From: Thioalkalivibrio versutus
Lineage (GTDB): Bacteria; Pseudomonadota; Gammaproteobacteria; Ectothiorhodospirales; Ectothiorhodospiraceae
Direction of reading: 5' to 3'
Assembly (NCBI RefSeq): GCF_001999325.1
Contig: NZ_MVAR01000003.1
Coordinates: 14,377-78,376 of the forward strand
DNA: 64,000 bases
This document shows positions 32,332-40,389 of the stretch, piece by piece (positions within the stretch are counted from its first letter, which is position 1; each line of letters begins with the position of its first letter). The translations under genes were made by a program, and so were the position numbers. Under the pieces are notes generated by a model. The model was not told the origin of the DNA. It made no database searches and was given only the letters and a program-made list of their open reading frames with translations.

Positions 32332-32586
32332 ATGGAACCGGATAACCGGACACGCTGGCGCTGTCGCCGCGGCATGCTGGAGAACGACTGGCTGCTCGGC
32401 CACTTTCTCGCGCAGGGATATGCGCAACTGGACCAGGAGGGTCGCGATGCCTTCGAGCGCCTGCTCGATTACCCCGACAACGTGCTGCTGGACGTGGTCA
32501 TGGGTCGCCAGACCACGGTGGACGAGGGGATAGCCCGTCTTGTCCCGGCGATCCGCGCCGCCACTCAGGCTTCGGCTCCGGCCTGA
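32332..32586 (+). CDS. sdhE: FAD assembly factor SdhE
   Basis: 84 residues from the ATG at 32332. The diagnostic RRGMLENDWLLGHFL (RGxxExD motif) is present at about 11-25. SdhE promotes covalent FAD attachment to SdhA. Its place directly behind sdhB makes a self-contained SDH assembly unit. The following ORF begins inside its last 47 nt. Confidence 0.92.
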   Translation: MEPDNRTRWRCRRGMLENDWLLGHFLAQGYAQLDQEGRDAFERLLDYPDNVLLDVVMGRQTTVDEGIARLVPAIRAATQASAPA

Positions 32587-33496
32587 CCCGGTTCTTCCCC
32601 GGCTCGCGTTCGCGGGCCAGATCCTCCTGCTCCTGGCTGTGGCCGCCTATGTGCTGGTGTACAGCCCGTTGTGGACGCTGGCCCCGGTCTTCGGGCTGGC
32701 CATCGCCGGGTGGTGGTGGCAAGGGCGCTCGCAACCGCCGGCCTGGGACTGGCTGGGGCAGACGCCCGAGGGTGCAACCTGGCTGGCCACCGCCGAGGGC
32801 CTGCGCCAGGAGCAGGTGGACTGGGTCGAGGTGCTGCCCGATACACGAGTGTTGCGTCGGGTCGTCATCCTCGTCGTTCGGGTGCCCGCGACCGGCCGGG
32901 TATGGCGCCTGTGGCTGCACGCCGGGCGCATGCATCCGGAGGACCTGCGCCGTCTGCGCGTGCGGTTGCGCTGGTCGCCCGCGCGCGAGGTGGTGGATCC
33001 CGGCTGGCGGGTGCGGCTTCGCGCGGGGGTGGAGCGCGGCGTTGCTATACTGGCGAAAAGCCGAGTACCCGGAGGCCCGAACATGGCTGGACCCGACAAT
33101 GCGCAGGTGATGGTGGACGTGTCACACCTGCTGAGTGACGAGCCCGATCACGTGTACAGCGAGGATGAACTGGACGCGATCGAGGAACTCGATCCGGAGC
33201 TCGCGCTGCGCCTGGACCGAGCCCAGACCCATGCGCAACGCGAGGCGGCCGACGTGCCGGCCGATGGCCCGATCGACGTGGACGCGGTGCGCGCCGCGAT
33301 CGAGGAGGCACGGCGGATCATGATGCAGGACGGGGGCGATATCGAGTTCGTGGAGCTCGATGGCCGCACCGTACGGGTCCGACTCAAGGGGGCCTGTGTG
33401 GGCTGTCCGCGCTCCACGCTGGATCTCAAGAATGTGGTCGAACGCCTGGTTCGGTCGCGTGCGCCGGGCGTGGCCAGCGTCGCCAACACCTTCTGA
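32540..33496 (+). CDS. YgfX-like protein fused in frame to a NifU-like domain
   Basis: A single uninterrupted 318-residue frame. Residues 1-about 150 resemble YgfX (CptA), the usual partner of SdhE: basic LRLRLRPDPVLPRL, two TM helices (LAFAGQILLLLAVAAYVLVY and a second), then a cytoplasmic part with RVVILVVRVP. From about 182 the sequence is a NifU C-terminal-like scaffold: an acidic stretch and then LKGACVGCPRSTLDLKNVVE with the CxxC Fe-S motif. An internal ATG at 33083 with GGAGG 8 nt upstream and a TATACT at about 33047-33053 could instead express a separate 137-residue NifU-like protein. Both readings are possible; the shared frame without any stop favours at least some fusion product. 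It would bring YgfX, Fe-S scaffolding and SDH together. Confidence 0.7.
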   Translation: MSRRSAPPLRLRLRPDPVLPRLAFAGQILLLLAVAAYVLVYSPLWTLAPVFGLAIAGWWWQGRSQPPAWDWLGQTPEGATWLATAEGLRQEQVDWVEVLPDTRVLRRVVILVVRVPATGRVWRLWLHAGRMHPEDLRRLRVRLRWSPAREVVDPGWRVRLRAGVERGVAILAKSRVPGGPNMAGPDNAQVMVDVSHLLSDEPDHVYSEDELDAIEELDPELALRLDRAQTHAQREAADVPADGPIDVDAVRAAIEEARRIMMQDGGDIEFVELDGRTVRVRLKGACVGCPRSTLDLKNVVERLVRSRAPGVASVANTF

Positions 33497-33517: not shown

Positions 33518-34444
33518 CTAGCCGGCACCGAGCCGGCGCAGTAGCTGCCGGATGCGCCCCGGCCCGAACCCGTGCACCCGCTTGAAGGCCTTGCGAAAGG
33601 CCGCCTCCGAGGTATAGCCCACCGCGTCCATCACGCCCGCGACCGACTCCCGCCCGTCGCGTAGCTGGCGTTCCGCCAGGACCATCCGCCACTGGGTCAG
33701 GTAGTCGATGGGCGTCTGTCCGACCAGCGCATGAAAGCGCTCCGCGAAGCTGCTGCGCGACATGGCGGCCTCGCTGGCCAGCCCCTCCAGGGTCCAGGCC
33801 GCCTCCGGGTGGGCGTGCAGGGCATCCAGTGCCCGGCGGATGCGGTCGTCCGCCAGGGCGGCGATCAGCGATCCCTCCGAGTGTTCGCGTTGCGAGCAGA
33901 TGTGATGGCGCACGGCCATCACGAACAGGGTGTCCGCCAGGCGGTCCAGCACGGGCCGGTAGCCCGAGGAACGCTCCGCGAGTTCGATGTTCATCAGGTC
34001 CGCCAGGTGTGACAGCCGGTCGCCGGATTCGCGGCGGCGGATGATGATGTGATCGGGGAGCGCGGCCAGGATCGGGTTGCGGCGGCCGGAATCGAACTCG
34101 AAGTGGCCGCACAGGAGCTGTGTGACCGGGATATCCGGCGGATCCTCGCCTTCCACCAGCGTCAGGTGGTTGTCGCGGTCGGGCACGGTGTCGCGGCTGG
34201 ACATCAGGTGCCAGTCGTCATGCGGCAGCAGGAGAAGATCGCCGGCCTCCATCCAGACGGGGGCCATCGCCTCCATGTGCAGATAGCATCCGCCTTCCCC
34301 CACCAGGTGAAAGCTGGCATTCCCCGAACCCGCCGTGCTGAGCTGCCACTCCCCGCACAGGCGCGGGTTGGTGTCGATGCGGGCACGCAAGTTGTAGGCG
34401 GCCAGAACCGTCGACAGCACGTCTTCGTGGGGGCTGATGTCCAT
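33518..34444 (-). CDS. AraC-family regulator with cupin-like sensor domain
   Basis: 308 residues from the ATG at 34444, preceded by AAGGAAGG. N-terminal AraC-binding/cupin-like domain (WQLSTAGSGNASFHLVGEG and LLLLPHDDWHLM are cupin strands; about residues 20-180) and C-terminal double helix-turn-helix (WTLEGLASEAAMSRSSFAERF and VAGVMDAVGYTSEAAFRKAFK). It is divergent from the doxX-hvfABC-like operon with 180 nt between, so it is the likely local regulator. Histidines in the sensor domain could bind metal, but that is not demonstrable here. Confidence 0.9.
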   Translation of the reverse strand: MDISPHEDVLSTVLAAYNLRARIDTNPRLCGEWQLSTAGSGNASFHLVGEGGCYLHMEAMAPVWMEAGDLLLLPHDDWHLMSSRDTVPDRDNHLTLVEGEDPPDIPVTQLLCGHFEFDSGRRNPILAALPDHIIIRRRESGDRLSHLADLMNIELAERSSGYRPVLDRLADTLFVMAVRHHICSQREHSEGSLIAALADDRIRRALDALHAHPEAAWTLEGLASEAAMSRSSFAERFHALVGQTPIDYLTQWRMVLAERQLRDGRESVAGVMDAVGYTSEAAFRKAFKRVHGFGPGRIRQLLRRLGAG

Positions 34445-34624
34445 CAAACCTTCCTTTTGCCTTTCTTCACCTTAGACCTTTGGGCGCCCGGTTGCCGGGC
34501 GTCACGGGCCTCTCCCCGTGGTCCCGGACGATCGGACATAAAAGCCGGCGGATCACCCCGCGTACAGCGTGAGCCCGCGGTCTAGGCTTTATACCCAGTA
34601 GAAGGGGAAAAGGAGATCAGGACG

Positions 34625-35245
34625 ATGGCTGCGACTGGAACCTTGGCAGTGCGCTTGCAGGCTTGGCTGGACTGGACGCGAGGTGCGGACTTCCTGGCGC
34701 CTTTGCTGTTGCGGCTCTACCTCGCCCCGGTGTTCTGGATGGCGGGGACCAACAAGCTGGACGGCATCCTGCCGAAAGAGAACGTGGTGATGTGGTACGG
34801 CAACGCGGACTGGGGGCTGGGCATGCCCTTCCCCTATCTGATGGTGATGCTGTCGGCGTATGCCGAGGTTCTGGGCGCGCTTGCGTTGCTGCTCGGTCTG
34901 GCGACGCGCTGGTTCTCGATCCCGCTGATGATCACGATGGTCGTGGCGGCCGTGACCGTGCATCTGGAACACGGGTGGCAGCGGATCTCCGATCCGATGA
35001 TGTGCCTGTTCAACTGTTCCGGGGTCGAACAGGCGCAGATGCGTCTGGATCGCGCCAAGTCCATTTTGCAGGAGCATGGCAACTACAATTGGCTGACCGA
35101 GACCGGAAACTTCGCGATCGTGAACAATGGGATCGAGATGGCCGCGACCTTCTTCGTGATGCTGCTGGTCCTGTTCTTCTGGGGAGCGGGACGCTATGTC
35201 AGCATCGACTATTACATCCGTCGGAGGATGATGAGCAGGGGATAA
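34625..35245 (+). CDS. DoxX-family membrane protein (HvfD-like)
   Basis: 206 residues with AAGGAG upstream. About four TM helices; the DoxX pattern is visible in LLLRLYLAPVFWMAGTNKLDG, PYLMVMLSAYAEVLGALALLLGLATRW and the late helix MAATFFVMLLVLFFWGAGRY. A soluble loop with CLFNCSGVEQ lies between TM3 and TM4. DoxX proteins occur with MNIO/DUF692 clusters; in Haemophilus the hvfABCD set includes one. Here it is the first gene rather than the last. Its role in peptide modification or electron transfer is not established. Confidence 0.85.
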   Translation: MAATGTLAVRLQAWLDWTRGADFLAPLLLRLYLAPVFWMAGTNKLDGILPKENVVMWYGNADWGLGMPFPYLMVMLSAYAEVLGALALLLGLATRWFSIPLMITMVVAAVTVHLEHGWQRISDPMMCLFNCSGVEQAQMRLDRAKSILQEHGNYNWLTETGNFAIVNNGIEMAATFFVMLLVLFFWGAGRYVSIDYYIRRRMMSRG

Positions 35246-35319
35246 CTCCAAGAGCTGTTTCAGCAGCCATTTCACAACGGGTCTAGCGGATCCATCATCG
35301 AAAGACGAGGAGTACGACC

Positions 35320-35616
35320 ATGAAGAACGATCTGTTTTCCACCAAGGCCCTGGCCGGTGCCGTCGGCACGGCGGCGATCGGCATGGCCATGGCCACCAGC
35401 CCGGTGTTTGCCTCGGCCGACCTGAACCACGGCTATCAGCAGGGCGGCCAGTCGCCGCTGATGCTGGCCGAGGGTTCCTGTGGCGAAGGCACTTGTGGTG
35501 GCGCGAGCGATACCAAGGACAGTGAAGGCAGCTGCGGCGAGGGCACCTGCGGTGGCTCGGACGGCGACGAGAAGGATTCCGAAGGCGCCTGTGGCGAGGG
35601 GACCTGTGGCGGCTAA
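35320..35616 (+). CDS. HvfA-like precursor peptide with six EGxCG motifs
   Basis: 98 residues. A Sec signal peptide (LAGAVGTAAIGMAMATSPVF, cleavage near ASA-DLN) is followed by a short spacer and three near-identical 11-residue repeats, EGSCGEGTCGG at 51-61 and 69-79 and EGACGEGTCGG at 88-98, joined by acidic linkers (DTKDS, DGDEKDS). Each repeat has two EGxCG motifs, six cysteines in all; the last ends exactly at the C-terminus. EGxCG is the modification site of HvfA-type peptides, where the MNIO enzyme oxidises cysteine into an oxazolone/thioamide pair that binds copper. The gene overlaps the following MNIO gene. Cysteine-rich low-complexity composition alone would be ambiguous; the neighbours decide the call. 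Confidence 0.88.
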   Translation: MKNDLFSTKALAGAVGTAAIGMAMATSPVFASADLNHGYQQGGQSPLMLAEGSCGEGTCGGASDTKDSEGSCGEGTCGGSDGDEKDSEGACGEGTCGG

Positions 35617-36490
35617 GGTCGTCCACCCTGCCAACCCGGCCCGCGTCAGCGGCGCCGGGCTCGGCTTGCGGCGGGCCCTGCTGGGCCCGCTGGCCGAGGC
35701 CCCGGAGGCGACGGAACGTCTGGGGTTTTTCGAGGCGGCACCGGAGAACTGGATGCACCTGGGTGGACGTCTGGGCCGCATCTTTCGCGAATACACCGAG
35801 GCCCAGCCCTTCGTCTGTCACGGGCTGTCTCTCGACATCGGCGGGCCGCGCCCGCTGGACAAGACCTTCCTGCAGGACCTGCGCACTTTCCTGGATACCC
35901 ACGGGATCGAGGATTACAGCGAGCATCTCTCCGCCTGTGGCGACGGCCAGGGGCATCTGTACGACCTGATGCCGATCCCGTTCACCGAGGAGGCGGTGCG
36001 CTACGTTGCCGATCGCGTGCGCCAGGTGCAGGACATCCTCGGGCGCCGGGTGGCGCTGGAGAATGTCTCCTATTACACCCCGGTGGGGGCCGAACTGGAC
36101 GAGATCACCTTCGTGCGGGCCGTGCTGGAGGAGGCCGACTGCGACCTCCTGCTCGACGTGAACAACATCGTCGTCAACAGCATCAATCACGGCTACGAGC
36201 CGACCGAGTTCCTGGATGCAATGCCGCTGGAGCGAGTGCGCTACCTGCACATTGCCGGGCACGAGGAGGAGGCCCCGGACCTGCGGGTCGATACCCATGG
36301 CCAGCCGATCTGTTCCGATGTCTGGGCGCTGCTGGAGGCCACCTATGCCCGCATCGGGCCGGTGCCGACCCTGCTCGAGCGCGACTTCAACTTTCCGCCG
36401 CTGGAGGAACTGCTGGCGGAGACCGACCGGATTCGGGATCTGCAGTTGCGGGCGCGCGCCGGCCAGGAAGAGCGGCTCCTGCATGCCTGA
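35606..36490 (+). CDS. MNIO-family (DUF692) peptide-modifying enzyme, HvfB-like
   Basis: 294 residues from the GTG at 35606, within the last hvfA codons and preceded by GAGGGG; the ORF upstream of it to 35480 is in the hvfA repeat shadow. TIM-barrel with the MNIO metal motifs: FFEAAPENWMH, HGLSLDIGG, EHLSACGD, VALENVSYY, LLDVNNIVVNSINHG, LHIAGHEE and LLERDFNFPPLEE, which supply the His, Asp and Glu ligands of the di/tri-iron centre. It should oxidise the EGxCG cysteines of the HvfA-like peptide. Translation is likely coupled to hvfA (11-nt overlap) and to hvfC (8-nt overlap). Confidence 0.93.
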   Translation: MAAKVVHPANPARVSGAGLGLRRALLGPLAEAPEATERLGFFEAAPENWMHLGGRLGRIFREYTEAQPFVCHGLSLDIGGPRPLDKTFLQDLRTFLDTHGIEDYSEHLSACGDGQGHLYDLMPIPFTEEAVRYVADRVRQVQDILGRRVALENVSYYTPVGAELDEITFVRAVLEEADCDLLLDVNNIVVNSINHGYEPTEFLDAMPLERVRYLHIAGHEEEAPDLRVDTHGQPICSDVWALLEATYARIGPVPTLLERDFNFPPLEELLAETDRIRDLQLRARAGQEERLLHA

Positions 36491-37253
36491 GGCGGATTTC
36501 CAGCAGGTGCAGGAGGCATTCGCGCGGCACTTGCGTGACCCGGAGCGCTATCCGGCCCCGGAGGGGATCGAGAGCCGGCGCCTGGCGATCTACCGGCGTC
36601 TGTTCTTCAACAACGTGGCCAACCTGCTGGCCCGGGGGTTCCCGGTCCTGCGGGGACTGCTGGAGGCGGCCGCCTGGGAACAGCTGGTGCGCGACTTCTA
36701 TCGCGATCATGGCAGCGAAACGCCGTATTTTCCGCAGTTGGCGGCGGAGTTCGTGCGCTACCTGGCGGAAGAACGCCCGGCGCAGCCCGGCGATCTGCCC
36801 TTCCTGGCCGAGTTGGCCCACTACGAGCGGGTGGAGACCGAACTGGTCTATGCGGATACCACGCAACCTCCGGATGTGACGCCGGACGGTGACCTTATGG
36901 TTCAGGTTCCGGTGTTTTCGGCCGCCGCGCGGCTGCTGGCCTACGAGTACCCGGTGCACCGGATCGGGGCCGACTTCCAGCCCGATCAACCGGGAGAGGT
37001 GCCGACCTACCTGCTGGCGTACCGCACCGGGGAGGAACGGGTGCGGTTTGCCGAGCTGAATCCGCTGGGCGCCCGGCTGCTGTGGCGGGTGATCGAGACA
37101 CCGGCGACCGGCGATGAACACATCCGCCGGGTGGCCGACGATTTCGGGCTGGAACTCTCGGACGAGCTGGTGGCCAGTGGGCGCCAGTTGCTGGAGCACT
37201 ACCGCGGGCTGGGCGCCATCGTGGGGACCCGGACTGACCGCGCATCCGCCTGA
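36483..37253 (+). CDS. DUF2063 MNIO partner protein, HvfC-like
   Basis: 256 residues from the ATG at 36483. The N-terminal DUF2063 domain shows the family pattern FARHLRDPERYPAPEGIESRRLAIYRRLFFNNVANLLARGFPVL (shown in part here) with the helix LAIYRRLFFNNV; a second domain of about 110 residues carries AAARLLAYEYPVHRIGAD. Such proteins bind the leader or core of the precursor peptide and present it to the MNIO enzyme. It completes the minimal A-B-C set. No terminator is evident after it. Confidence 0.9.
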   Translation: MPEADFQQVQEAFARHLRDPERYPAPEGIESRRLAIYRRLFFNNVANLLARGFPVLRGLLEAAAWEQLVRDFYRDHGSETPYFPQLAAEFVRYLAEERPAQPGDLPFLAELAHYERVETELVYADTTQPPDVTPDGDLMVQVPVFSAAARLLAYEYPVHRIGADFQPDQPGEVPTYLLAYRTGEERVRFAELNPLGARLLWRVIETPATGDEHIRRVADDFGLELSDELVASGRQLLEHYRGLGAIVGTRTDRASA

Positions 37254-39273: not shown

Positions 39274-39402
39274 AGGGTTTACCGTTGGGAGGCGGCCGTG
39301 GAGCGCGCACCGCTGGATACAATCTCGAAGTTCAACGAACGATCCCGTCACATATTGCGTGCGCTGTCCGACTCGGGGCGCGAACGACACAAGGAGTTTT
39401 CC

Positions 39403-40389
39403 ATGACATTGAATGTTTTGTTGCGCCAGGGTCAGGTGGCCTTCCTCGCGCTGGGCCTGATGGGCTTCGGCATGGCCGCCGTGCAGGCGGAGGAAGAGTC
39501 GCTGGATCGTCCGATCGAGAAGGTGCTGGAGCCGATTCAGCTGACCGACCGGGTTCATTACTTTTACGGCTCGCTCGAGAACCGCACGCCGACCAATCTC
39601 GGTTTCACCAATAACACCGGCTTCGTGGTGACCGACGAAGGCGTGGTGCTGATCGATTCGGGGCCGAGCTACCAGGTCGCCCAGCGCATGGAGAAGGCGA
39701 TTGCCGGGGTCACCGACAAGCCGATCACGCACGTGATTTCGGTGGGCAGCCAGGACCACCGCTGGCTGGGCAACGGCTACTTCCACGAGCAGGGGGCGGA
39801 GCTGGTTGCGCTGCAGCGGACCGCGAGCACCCAGGCCGATCGCGGGGAGGGGCAGATCGCCTCGCTGGCCAATTCCGTGGGCGAAGAGGCGATGGAGGGC
39901 ACCCAGCCGGTTCCGGCACCGAACCCCATCGATGCCGATGAATACACCCTGACCGTGGGCGGTGTGGACTTCGAGCTGATCTATGCCGGGGATGCCCACT
40001 TCCCGGGCGACATCATGGTTCACCTTCCGGGCGAGGACGTCGTCTTTACCGGTGACATCGTCTACACCGAGCGCATGCTGGGCATCCATCCCTTCAGCAA
40101 CCCGGTGGAGAAGCTCGAGGCCTTCCGGCACCTGGAATCCATCGATCCGGAGATCGTCGTGCCGGGGCACGGCCGCGCGACCGACATGGCCGAGGCACGC
40201 CAGGATACGGGGGATTACCTGGAACTCCTGGTGCGCGAGGTGACGGCAGGCATCGAGGACTGGGAATCGCTGGGCGAGGTGGTCGACCGCCTGGCGGATC
40301 TGGAACAGTTCAAGCACCTGCGCCACTACGATGACTGGCACCGCCCGAACGTGAACCGGACCTACCTGTTCATCGAAGGCAACATGTAA
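39403..40389 (+). CDS. Secreted MBL-fold protein with degenerate HxH motif
   Basis: 328 residues from the ATG at 39403 (AAGGAG 6-7 nt upstream). Signal peptide VAFLALGLMGFGMAAVQAEE. The metallo-beta-lactamase fold is clear (NNTGFVVTDEGVVLIDSGPS, GDAHFPGDIMVHLP, VVFTGDIVYTERMLGI, VVPGHGRATDM), but the first metal motif, normally HxHxDH, reads SVGSQDHRWLGN: both leading histidines are replaced. The remaining ligands (D and H of QDH, H of DAH, D of TGD, H of PGH) are kept. Either it binds a single metal or it has changed function. Related SoxH-like proteins occur with sulfur-oxidation genes. Standalone gene upstream of thrS. Confidence 0.85.
   Translation: MTLNVLLRQGQVAFLALGLMGFGMAAVQAEEESLDRPIEKVLEPIQLTDRVHYFYGSLENRTPTNLGFTNNTGFVVTDEGVVLIDSGPSYQVAQRMEKAIAGVTDKPITHVISVGSQDHRWLGNGYFHEQGAELVALQRTASTQADRGEGQIASLANSVGEEAMEGTQPVPAPNPIDADEYTLTVGGVDFELIYAGDAHFPGDIMVHLPGEDVVFTGDIVYTERMLGIHPFSNPVEKLEAFRHLESIDPEIVVPGHGRATDMAEARQDTGDYLELLVREVTAGIEDWESLGEVVDRLADLEQFKHLRHYDDWHRPNVNRTYLFIEGNM

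Follow-up and report, generated by a model that had tools for sequence, protein, structure and literature searches.

An hvfXABC operon of the oxazolin/captophorin kind in Thioalkalivibrio versutus, with hvfX first, a lysine-free precursor core and a divergent RclR-like regulator

Among characterised systems, the closest relatives of the locus analysed here are the oxazolin operon of nontypeable Haemophilus influenzae, which comprises hvfABC and hvfX (PMC13419390), and the fontiphorin genes fonABC of Fontimonas thermophila and the captophorins (PMC13097082). Oxazolin, among characterised products the nearest to the one expected here, is now assigned by two groups as a 5-thiooxazole, formed with a loss of 4 Da per cysteine (PMC13097082, PMC13419390). 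Copper peptides made by MNIO enzymes are widespread, and the triggers of EGxCG operons are little known in the parts of the literature consulted. In a 64,000-nucleotide stretch of contig NZ_MVAR01000003.1 from the soda-lake sulfur bacterium T. versutus (the whole of which we call the window), four co-directional genes at 34625-37253 form an operon of this kind, hvfXABC, and a divergent gene, here called R, faces its first member. The kind is already known; new here are the hvfX-first order, a core with no lysine at the variable motif position, and an RclR-like regulator of its own that is paired with one conserved site. The features, in window coordinates, are:

33518-34444, - strand: R, AraC/XylS-family regulator (Cupin_6 + HTH_18), divergent from hvfX; RclR-like, under the RclR cut-off
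34526-34542, + strand: conserved 17-bp site GGACGATCGGACATAAA, candidate R operator, from row counts, a genus scan and held-out genera
34582-34590, + strand: -10-like element CTAGGCTTT of the putative hvfX promoter, from its fixed 39-bp spacing from the 17-bp site
34625-35245, + strand: hvfX, DoxX-family inner membrane protein, first gene of the operon; NF050144 230.5 bits (cut-off 80); Pfam DoxX
35320-35616, + strand: hvfA, secreted precursor peptide of 98 amino acids; NF050137 34.1 bits (cut-off 19.5); NF050188 42.8 bits (below its cut-off of 95)
35470-35502, + strand: hvfA core block 1, EGSCGEGTCGG, residues 51-61, from sequence
35524-35556, + strand: hvfA core block 2, EGSCGEGTCGG, residues 69-79, from sequence
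35581-35613, + strand: hvfA core block 3, EGACGEGTCGG, residues 88-98, from sequence
35606-36490, + strand: hvfB, MNIO (DUF692) peptide maturase, with a probable GTG start; NF003818 413.2 bits (cut-off 360); structure 3BWW, E 2.1e-73
36483-37253, + strand: hvfC, DUF2063 partner (PME1), ATG start; NF050145 278.2 bits (cut-off 142); structure 3DEE, E 5.3e-11

The assignment of the four genes to hvfXABC is far beyond chance. HvfX, HvfB and HvfC exceed the cut-offs of their NCBIfam families, HvfA exceeds that of the KCGExKCG_twice domain NF050137, and hvfB alone in the whole genome matches PF05114. The closest named HvfB is that of Thioalkalivibrio sp. AKL19 (98% identity). R, hvfX, hvfA, hvfB and hvfC are all under purifying selection, with ratios of non-synonymous to synonymous substitution rates (dN/dS) of 0.05-0.27 over five relatives per gene. 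We chose GTG 35606 as the hvfB start because the next methionine comes after a conserved arginine pair; with that start hvfA and hvfB overlap by 11 bp, and hvfB and hvfC overlap by 8 bp. An initial annotation of this stretch had described a doxX-hvfA-hvfB-hvfC cluster at these positions, with both overlaps and three tandem EGxCGEGTCGG repeats, all of which we found as described. Its label, Hvf/bufferin-type, was sound for Hvf and too loose for bufferin: in the profile comparison that it proposed, HvfB falls short of the BufB cut-off (257.4 vs 310 bits), HvfA has no Pfam match, DUF2282 included, and the strict HvfA equivalog NF050188 is not reached either.

HvfB is assigned by Pfam to MbnB_TglH_ChrH, and its structural match 3BWW, from Histophilus somni, has 72.4% identity to H. 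influenzae HvfB and a diiron site (PMC13419390). Aligned with its counterparts from 80 related loci (81 rows with the window), HvfB retains the conserved His, Asp, Asn and Glu ligands and the catalytic Asp of MNIO enzymes, in line with the full set of metal-ligand motifs that the initial annotation had claimed: H72, H107, E152, D184, N186, N187, H215, D229, H231, E258, D260, R23 and F261 are identical in 81/81 rows, and R22 is kept in 80/81. These 14 inspected positions comprise residues for iron, for the base and for recognising the substrate. By our own count on the 3BWW alignment, N186, D229 and H231 would correspond to the HvfB residues N175, D242 and H244, which are essential for activity; these residues and 3BWW together suggest that the ligands form an iron site. 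Likewise in our own mapping, by motif, R22/R23 and D260/F261 would be FonB R15/R16 and D249/F250. HvfC combines DUF2063 (PF09836) with NGO1945_C and has a C-terminal domain resembling the recognition element (RRE) of ribosomally synthesised and post-translationally modified peptides (RiPPs). HvfX keeps 35 invariant columns in a 32-row alignment, and its structure model (predicted local distance difference test score, pLDDT, 81.7) had no PDB match at E <= 0.001.

We mapped homologues of R (AraC), X, A, B and C in the 80 related loci. A strong HvfX match lies upstream of hvfB in 10 loci and downstream in 27; a further 20 loci have a weak DoxX match downstream and 2 have one upstream, and neither kind was found in 21, where some contigs are short. 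The weak matches (40-120 bits, 22 of the 80 loci) could represent DoxX proteins of another kind. A divergent RclR-like R stands upstream in 7 of the 10 hvfX-first loci (Thioalkalivibrio twice, Stagnimonas, Thiogranum, Algiphilus, Stenotrophobium and Polycyclovorans) and at none of the 70 remaining loci, 15 of which have less than 3 kb upstream of hvfB, where R could be missed. At 10 and 7 loci out of 80, respectively, the doxX-first order and the AraC neighbour are uncommon; the initial annotation had noted that both differ from the Haemophilus arrangement. The HvfB proteins of 11 X-first rows, the window included, form one clade in a quick tree (Shimodaira-Hasegawa-like approximate likelihood-ratio support, SH-aLRT, 95), and the presence of R requires three changes on the HvfB tree.

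Within the genus, an HvfB orthologue (E <= 1e-70) is present in 19 of 30 Thioalkalivibrio genomes. Ten of those 19, and no others, carry R at 74% identity or more, and it faces hvfX in 10/10; none of the 11 genomes that lack an HvfB orthologue has an orthologue of R. Across the class, a gene like R at E <= 1e-40 was found in 20 of 274 genomes, and 0/20 such matches other than the window's had hvfX or hvfB within the fetched loci. When 37 R-like proteins are placed in a tree, in which E. coli RclR is a remote outgroup, the 11 rows labelled hvf form one clade (support 90/83); they include L123, a gene from genome G009. The hvf-free genes of the class and this tree together indicate that R-like proteins are a wider family, of which those facing hvfX are one branch. 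In genus genomes G009 and G011, an R-like gene (42-44% identity) lies past hvfC, at 2.3 and 1.2 kb respectively; the G009 gene faces another small secreted gene, and the G011 copy is broken by a stop.

The gap between R and hvfX in diverged Thioalkalivibrio aligns poorly except at GGACGATCGGACATAAA and at a CTAGGCTT element. The 17-mer GGACGATCGGACATAAA matches at 15-17 of 17 positions in 12/12 Thioalkalivibrio rows with R, which include two pairs of near-copies, and at only 9-11 of 17 in R-less X-first rows (n = 9; L091, L092 and L098 repeat L003, L004 and L005, and L097 spans 3.3 kb, inflating its score of 11). The best score in 1300 mononucleotide shuffles was 14, reached once. Allowing up to two mismatches, the 17-mer occurs in 10 of the 30 genus genomes, exactly those in which R faces hvfX and always in the gap between them, with one stray match besides, in G020; a reversed control pattern gave four matches across the 30. 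A matrix built from nine Thioalkalivibrio rows was then applied to five held-out genera, with 1000 shuffles each, and gave single-test p values of 0.001 in Stagnimonas, 0.005 in Thiogranum, 0.016 in Algiphilus, 0.001 in Stenotrophobium and 0.055 in Polycyclovorans, as against 0.12-0.92 in five R-less controls. The CTAG-like element CTAGGCTTT, which resembles a -10 box, begins 39 bp after the site in 9/9 Thioalkalivibrio rows; the same spacing, with the element as CYAR, recurs in three of the five held-out loci, and Polycyclovorans has 40 bp. These patterns suggest that CTAGGCTTT is the -10 element of hvfX and that R binds the 17-bp site.

R itself has the make-up of AraC/XylS proteins, a cupin-like N-terminal domain and a double helix-turn-helix, and its model has an AraC fold whose best Foldseek matches are AraC-family structures. 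It shares 28% identity with E. coli RclR and scores 124.2 bits against the RclR cut-off of 400 (NF040475). A disulfide between Cys21 and Cys89 activates RclR (PMC7464077), whose gene adjoins that of the Cu(II) reductase, rclA; Cys112 of R aligns with RclR Cys89. Cys30, Cys53 and Cys112 are invariant among eight hvf-linked R proteins. We considered and rejected these three cysteines as a hallmark of hvf-linked R, as many other RclR-like rows have them. We hypothesize that R is under redox control.

HvfA starts with what looks, by eye, like a Sec signal peptide and carries six EGxCG motifs in three EG[S/A]CGEGTCGG blocks. H. influenzae HvfA has three AEGKCGEGKCG motifs (PMC13419390), and this likeness of layout, three double blocks and six candidate cysteines, supports reading the window peptide as an EGxCG metallophore. 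The two differ at x, which is Lys in Haemophilus and S, T, S, T, A, T (Lys at 0/6) in the window. Among 60 precursors (the window and 59 of the 80 loci; the 21 loci without a precursor by the motif rule were excluded, and of the rows retained L061, at least, is open to doubt), x in 414 motifs is Lys in 285, Ser in 76, Thr in 18, Ala in 15 and another residue in 20. Lys-poor precursors make up 22 of the 60, and the HvfB tree requires 10 or more changes of this trait. Among characterised relatives, FonBC takes Ala, Arg or Thr in place of Lys, tolerates Thr or Ala at both repeats, and is harmed by Phe and Glu (PMC13097082). Given this tolerance, it is plausible that HvfA is modified despite the loss of Lys, and its core offers a naturally occurring case in which to ask which parts of EGxCG the enzyme cannot do without.

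We also considered whether Lys loss is a by-product of a Lys-poor proteome, an explanation that we do not accept on the following results. The fraction of motifs with Lys correlates weakly with the Lys content of HvfB plus HvfC (rho 0.33, p 0.010), and the same comparison as a 2x2 table gives a Fisher p of 0.18. Net acidity runs opposite to expectation, Lys-rich precursors pairing with more acidic enzymes (rho 0.52, p 2e-5). The HvfB tree yields just six independent pairs, within which the Lys trait seldom differs. Separately, Lys-poor EG[S/A/T/N]CG precursors also occur off the Thioalkalivibrio branch, in Wenzhouxiangella-type loci and an Ectothiorhodospiraceae bin (L020, L022, L030, L033, L042, L035), and EF-hand-like stretches lie between the EGKCG motifs of six precursors (L008, L026, L040, L053, L058, L109); EF-hand_5 fusions have been described (PMC12452194).

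We propose that the product of hvfXABC is probably a secreted RiPP metallophore of the oxazolin/captophorin type, which protects against copper and is made under the control of a dedicated divergent activator, R. Biosynthesis is well supported; the modification, copper binding, binding of R to the site and the signal are what we infer. HvfC, as the RRE partner, would present HvfA to HvfB, whose iron centre would oxidise the cysteine of each EGxCG to a 5-thiooxazole (six expected, about -24.2 Da). The modified peptide, exported via Sec, would bind periplasmic or extracellular Cu(I) and so protect the cell, with HvfX as an accessory membrane protein. R would be an activator of the RclR type that responds to oxidation of its Cys30/Cys112, which lie in the same region as Cys21/Cys89 of RclR. 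Bound to the 17-bp site, whose centre is ~60 bp ahead of the predicted hvfX start point, R would turn on hvfXABC under oxidant and/or copper stress. The initial annotation had likewise proposed copper handling from the sequence; that reading now comes with a candidate regulator and operator.

More tentatively, these genes may form a clade-specific captophorin system, spanning Thioalkalivibrio, Algiphilus, Nevskiaceae genera and a Thiogranum bin, in which a thiooxazole copper peptide is placed under an RclR-type redox activator with one operator, so that the signal is an oxidant and the output is copper sequestration. If this were true, an oxidant (reactive chlorine or sulfur species) would be the primary signal, the same coupling as in E. 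coli rclR-rclA by way of unrelated effectors. One regulator, one operator and one operon across six genera make a clean system for the question of oxidant versus copper signalling.

Several observations weigh against this account. The motif was derived from the regions in which it was counted, which leaves its uniqueness in genomes, the R-less rows and the held-out genera as the independent evidence. Among the latter, the Polycyclovorans site is not significant, and Algiphilus, despite having the R most similar to those of the genus, shows no CTAG-like element. In 3 of the 10 X-first loci (9 rows when every X-first row is counted) R does not stand beside hvfX, so the operon does not require it, and the support for the hvf-R clade is under the star threshold. 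On the side of redox sensing, R Cys30 sits three columns off RclR Cys21, residues 27-31 (the Cys30 loop) are modelled with low confidence, and other R-like rows carry Cys30 in 11/25 and Cys112 in 23/25. For the core, x = Ser, which occurs twice in the window HvfA, is absent among the FonBC variants in the available part of PMC13097082.

The alternative that survives best, though we think it unlikely, is that oxidant or reactive sulfur species rather than copper are the main load, sensed by R, while the thiol-rich peptide scavenges them or keeps released copper harmless. RclR is the nearest relative of R, and two neighbouring non-hvf R genes face CMD/AhpD-like genes, an arrangement that recalls P. 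aeruginosa, where rclX, of the AhpD family, lies opposite rclR (PMC7950407); free copper in E. coli also rises under hypochlorous acid (HOCl) stress (PMC7527725). Yet R lies far under the RclR cut-off, and the closest characterised peptides bind copper.

Rather less probable is that the same operon serves supply, its peptide, like methanobactin, importing or storing copper for enzymes of the periplasm that need it. Copper enzymes are in use in soda-lake Thioalkalivibrio, and HvfB falls in the superfamily of MbnB, but its score of 55.4 bits is far under the MbnB cut-off of 325. Moreover, characterised EGKCG and bufferin products are tied to excess copper, gold or oxidative stress and not to starvation (PMC13097082).

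It is very doubtful that R and its site act on R's own gene or on some other target, with the hvf link no more than an inherited neighbourhood. R-like genes elsewhere do face other genes, with hvfX at 0/20 class loci other than the window's, and the R-like gene past hvfC in G009 has a partner of its own. Against this stand the fixed 39-bp spacing from the site towards the hvfX promoter and the absence of R orthologues from every genus genome that lacks an HvfB orthologue. We hold it very improbable that the Lys-free HvfA escapes modification, or receives a different one, and works as a simple metal-binding peptide rich in Cys: its six S/T/A positions and the many Lys-poor relatives would fit, but HvfB keeps, by motif, the Arg pair and Asp-Phe of Lys-Cys enzymes, hvfB and hvfC are under purifying selection, and FonBC accepts Ala and Thr. 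The oxazolone/thioamide pairs expected by the initial annotation, after the original oxazolin assignment, are outdated and scarcely credible, since alkylation-assisted nuclear magnetic resonance moved oxazolin, gonophorin and fontiphorin to 5-thiooxazole (PMC13097082) and the oxazolin group has accepted the reassignment (PMC13419390), even though the NCBIfam names of NF050137 and NF050188 still carry the older structure.

Some further observations concern the surroundings. Among ten neighbours of non-hvf R genes judged by eye and six scanned, two facing genes are CMD-family (AhpD-like), one is a cytochrome P460 and one a sub-threshold YHS protein. Two R-like genes outside the hvfX arrangement (L150:969-3172, L124:2491-2913) face small secreted proteins that look by eye like one family and have no Pfam match; in L150, a DsrE-like gene follows. 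In the window, 32540-33496 encodes a NifU-like C-terminal domain (72 bits) after an N-terminal stretch resembling Cpta_toxin (25.5 bits, cut-off 27.3). Two genes beyond the neighbours of hvfC, 39298-40389 encodes a metallo-beta-lactamase-fold protein with a signal-like start, for which no operon link was shown.

Compared with known systems, the window operon shares its four protein families with the Haemophilus oxazolin operon and differs from it in placing hvfX first and in having an RclR-like AraC gene and a conserved site facing hvfX; the Haemophilus order and regulator are not stated in the available part of PMC13419390. With fontiphorin and the captophorins it shares the Lys-Cys MNIO-PME1 pair, the EGxCG repeats and the MNIO Arg pair and Asp-Phe, whereas fon is a minimal three-gene set; transcriptional regulators are said to co-occur with the captophorin class, in a paper whose main text does not contain 'AraC' (PMC13097082). 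The Buf_EGKCG/oxazolin group and the bufferins combine the same RiPP-MNIO-DUF2063-DoxX core in varied ways (PMC12452194, whose main text contains neither 'AraC' nor 'regulator'); unlike Bufferin 1, the window precursor is not DUF2282. The copper- and gold-inducible gig operons of Cupriavidus and Legionella also share DUF692-DUF2063-DoxX and a small precursor, but that precursor is DUF2282 and doxX is transcribed last (PMC5413113). In Pseudomonas clusters, DoxX lies upstream of the MNIO gene (Pep4) or a LysR regulator is present (Pep3) (PMC8719888), so regulators and gene order vary elsewhere too; the one 'AraC' match alongside DUF692 in that paper is apparently the plant name Arachis. In the literature searched, which covers few subscription papers, no paper joined Thioalkalivibrio, copper and DUF692, and nine MNIO papers among the matches listed did not name RclR. 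The regulatory half is closest to E. coli rclR-rclABC and P. aeruginosa rclR-rclX, which share with the window a divergent AraC regulator, a cysteine at the Cys89 place and copper- or thiol-protective neighbours (PMC7464077, PMC7527725, PMC7950407); the window differs from them in its distance from RclR, in having no rclABC homologues and in its target, which is a RiPP operon.

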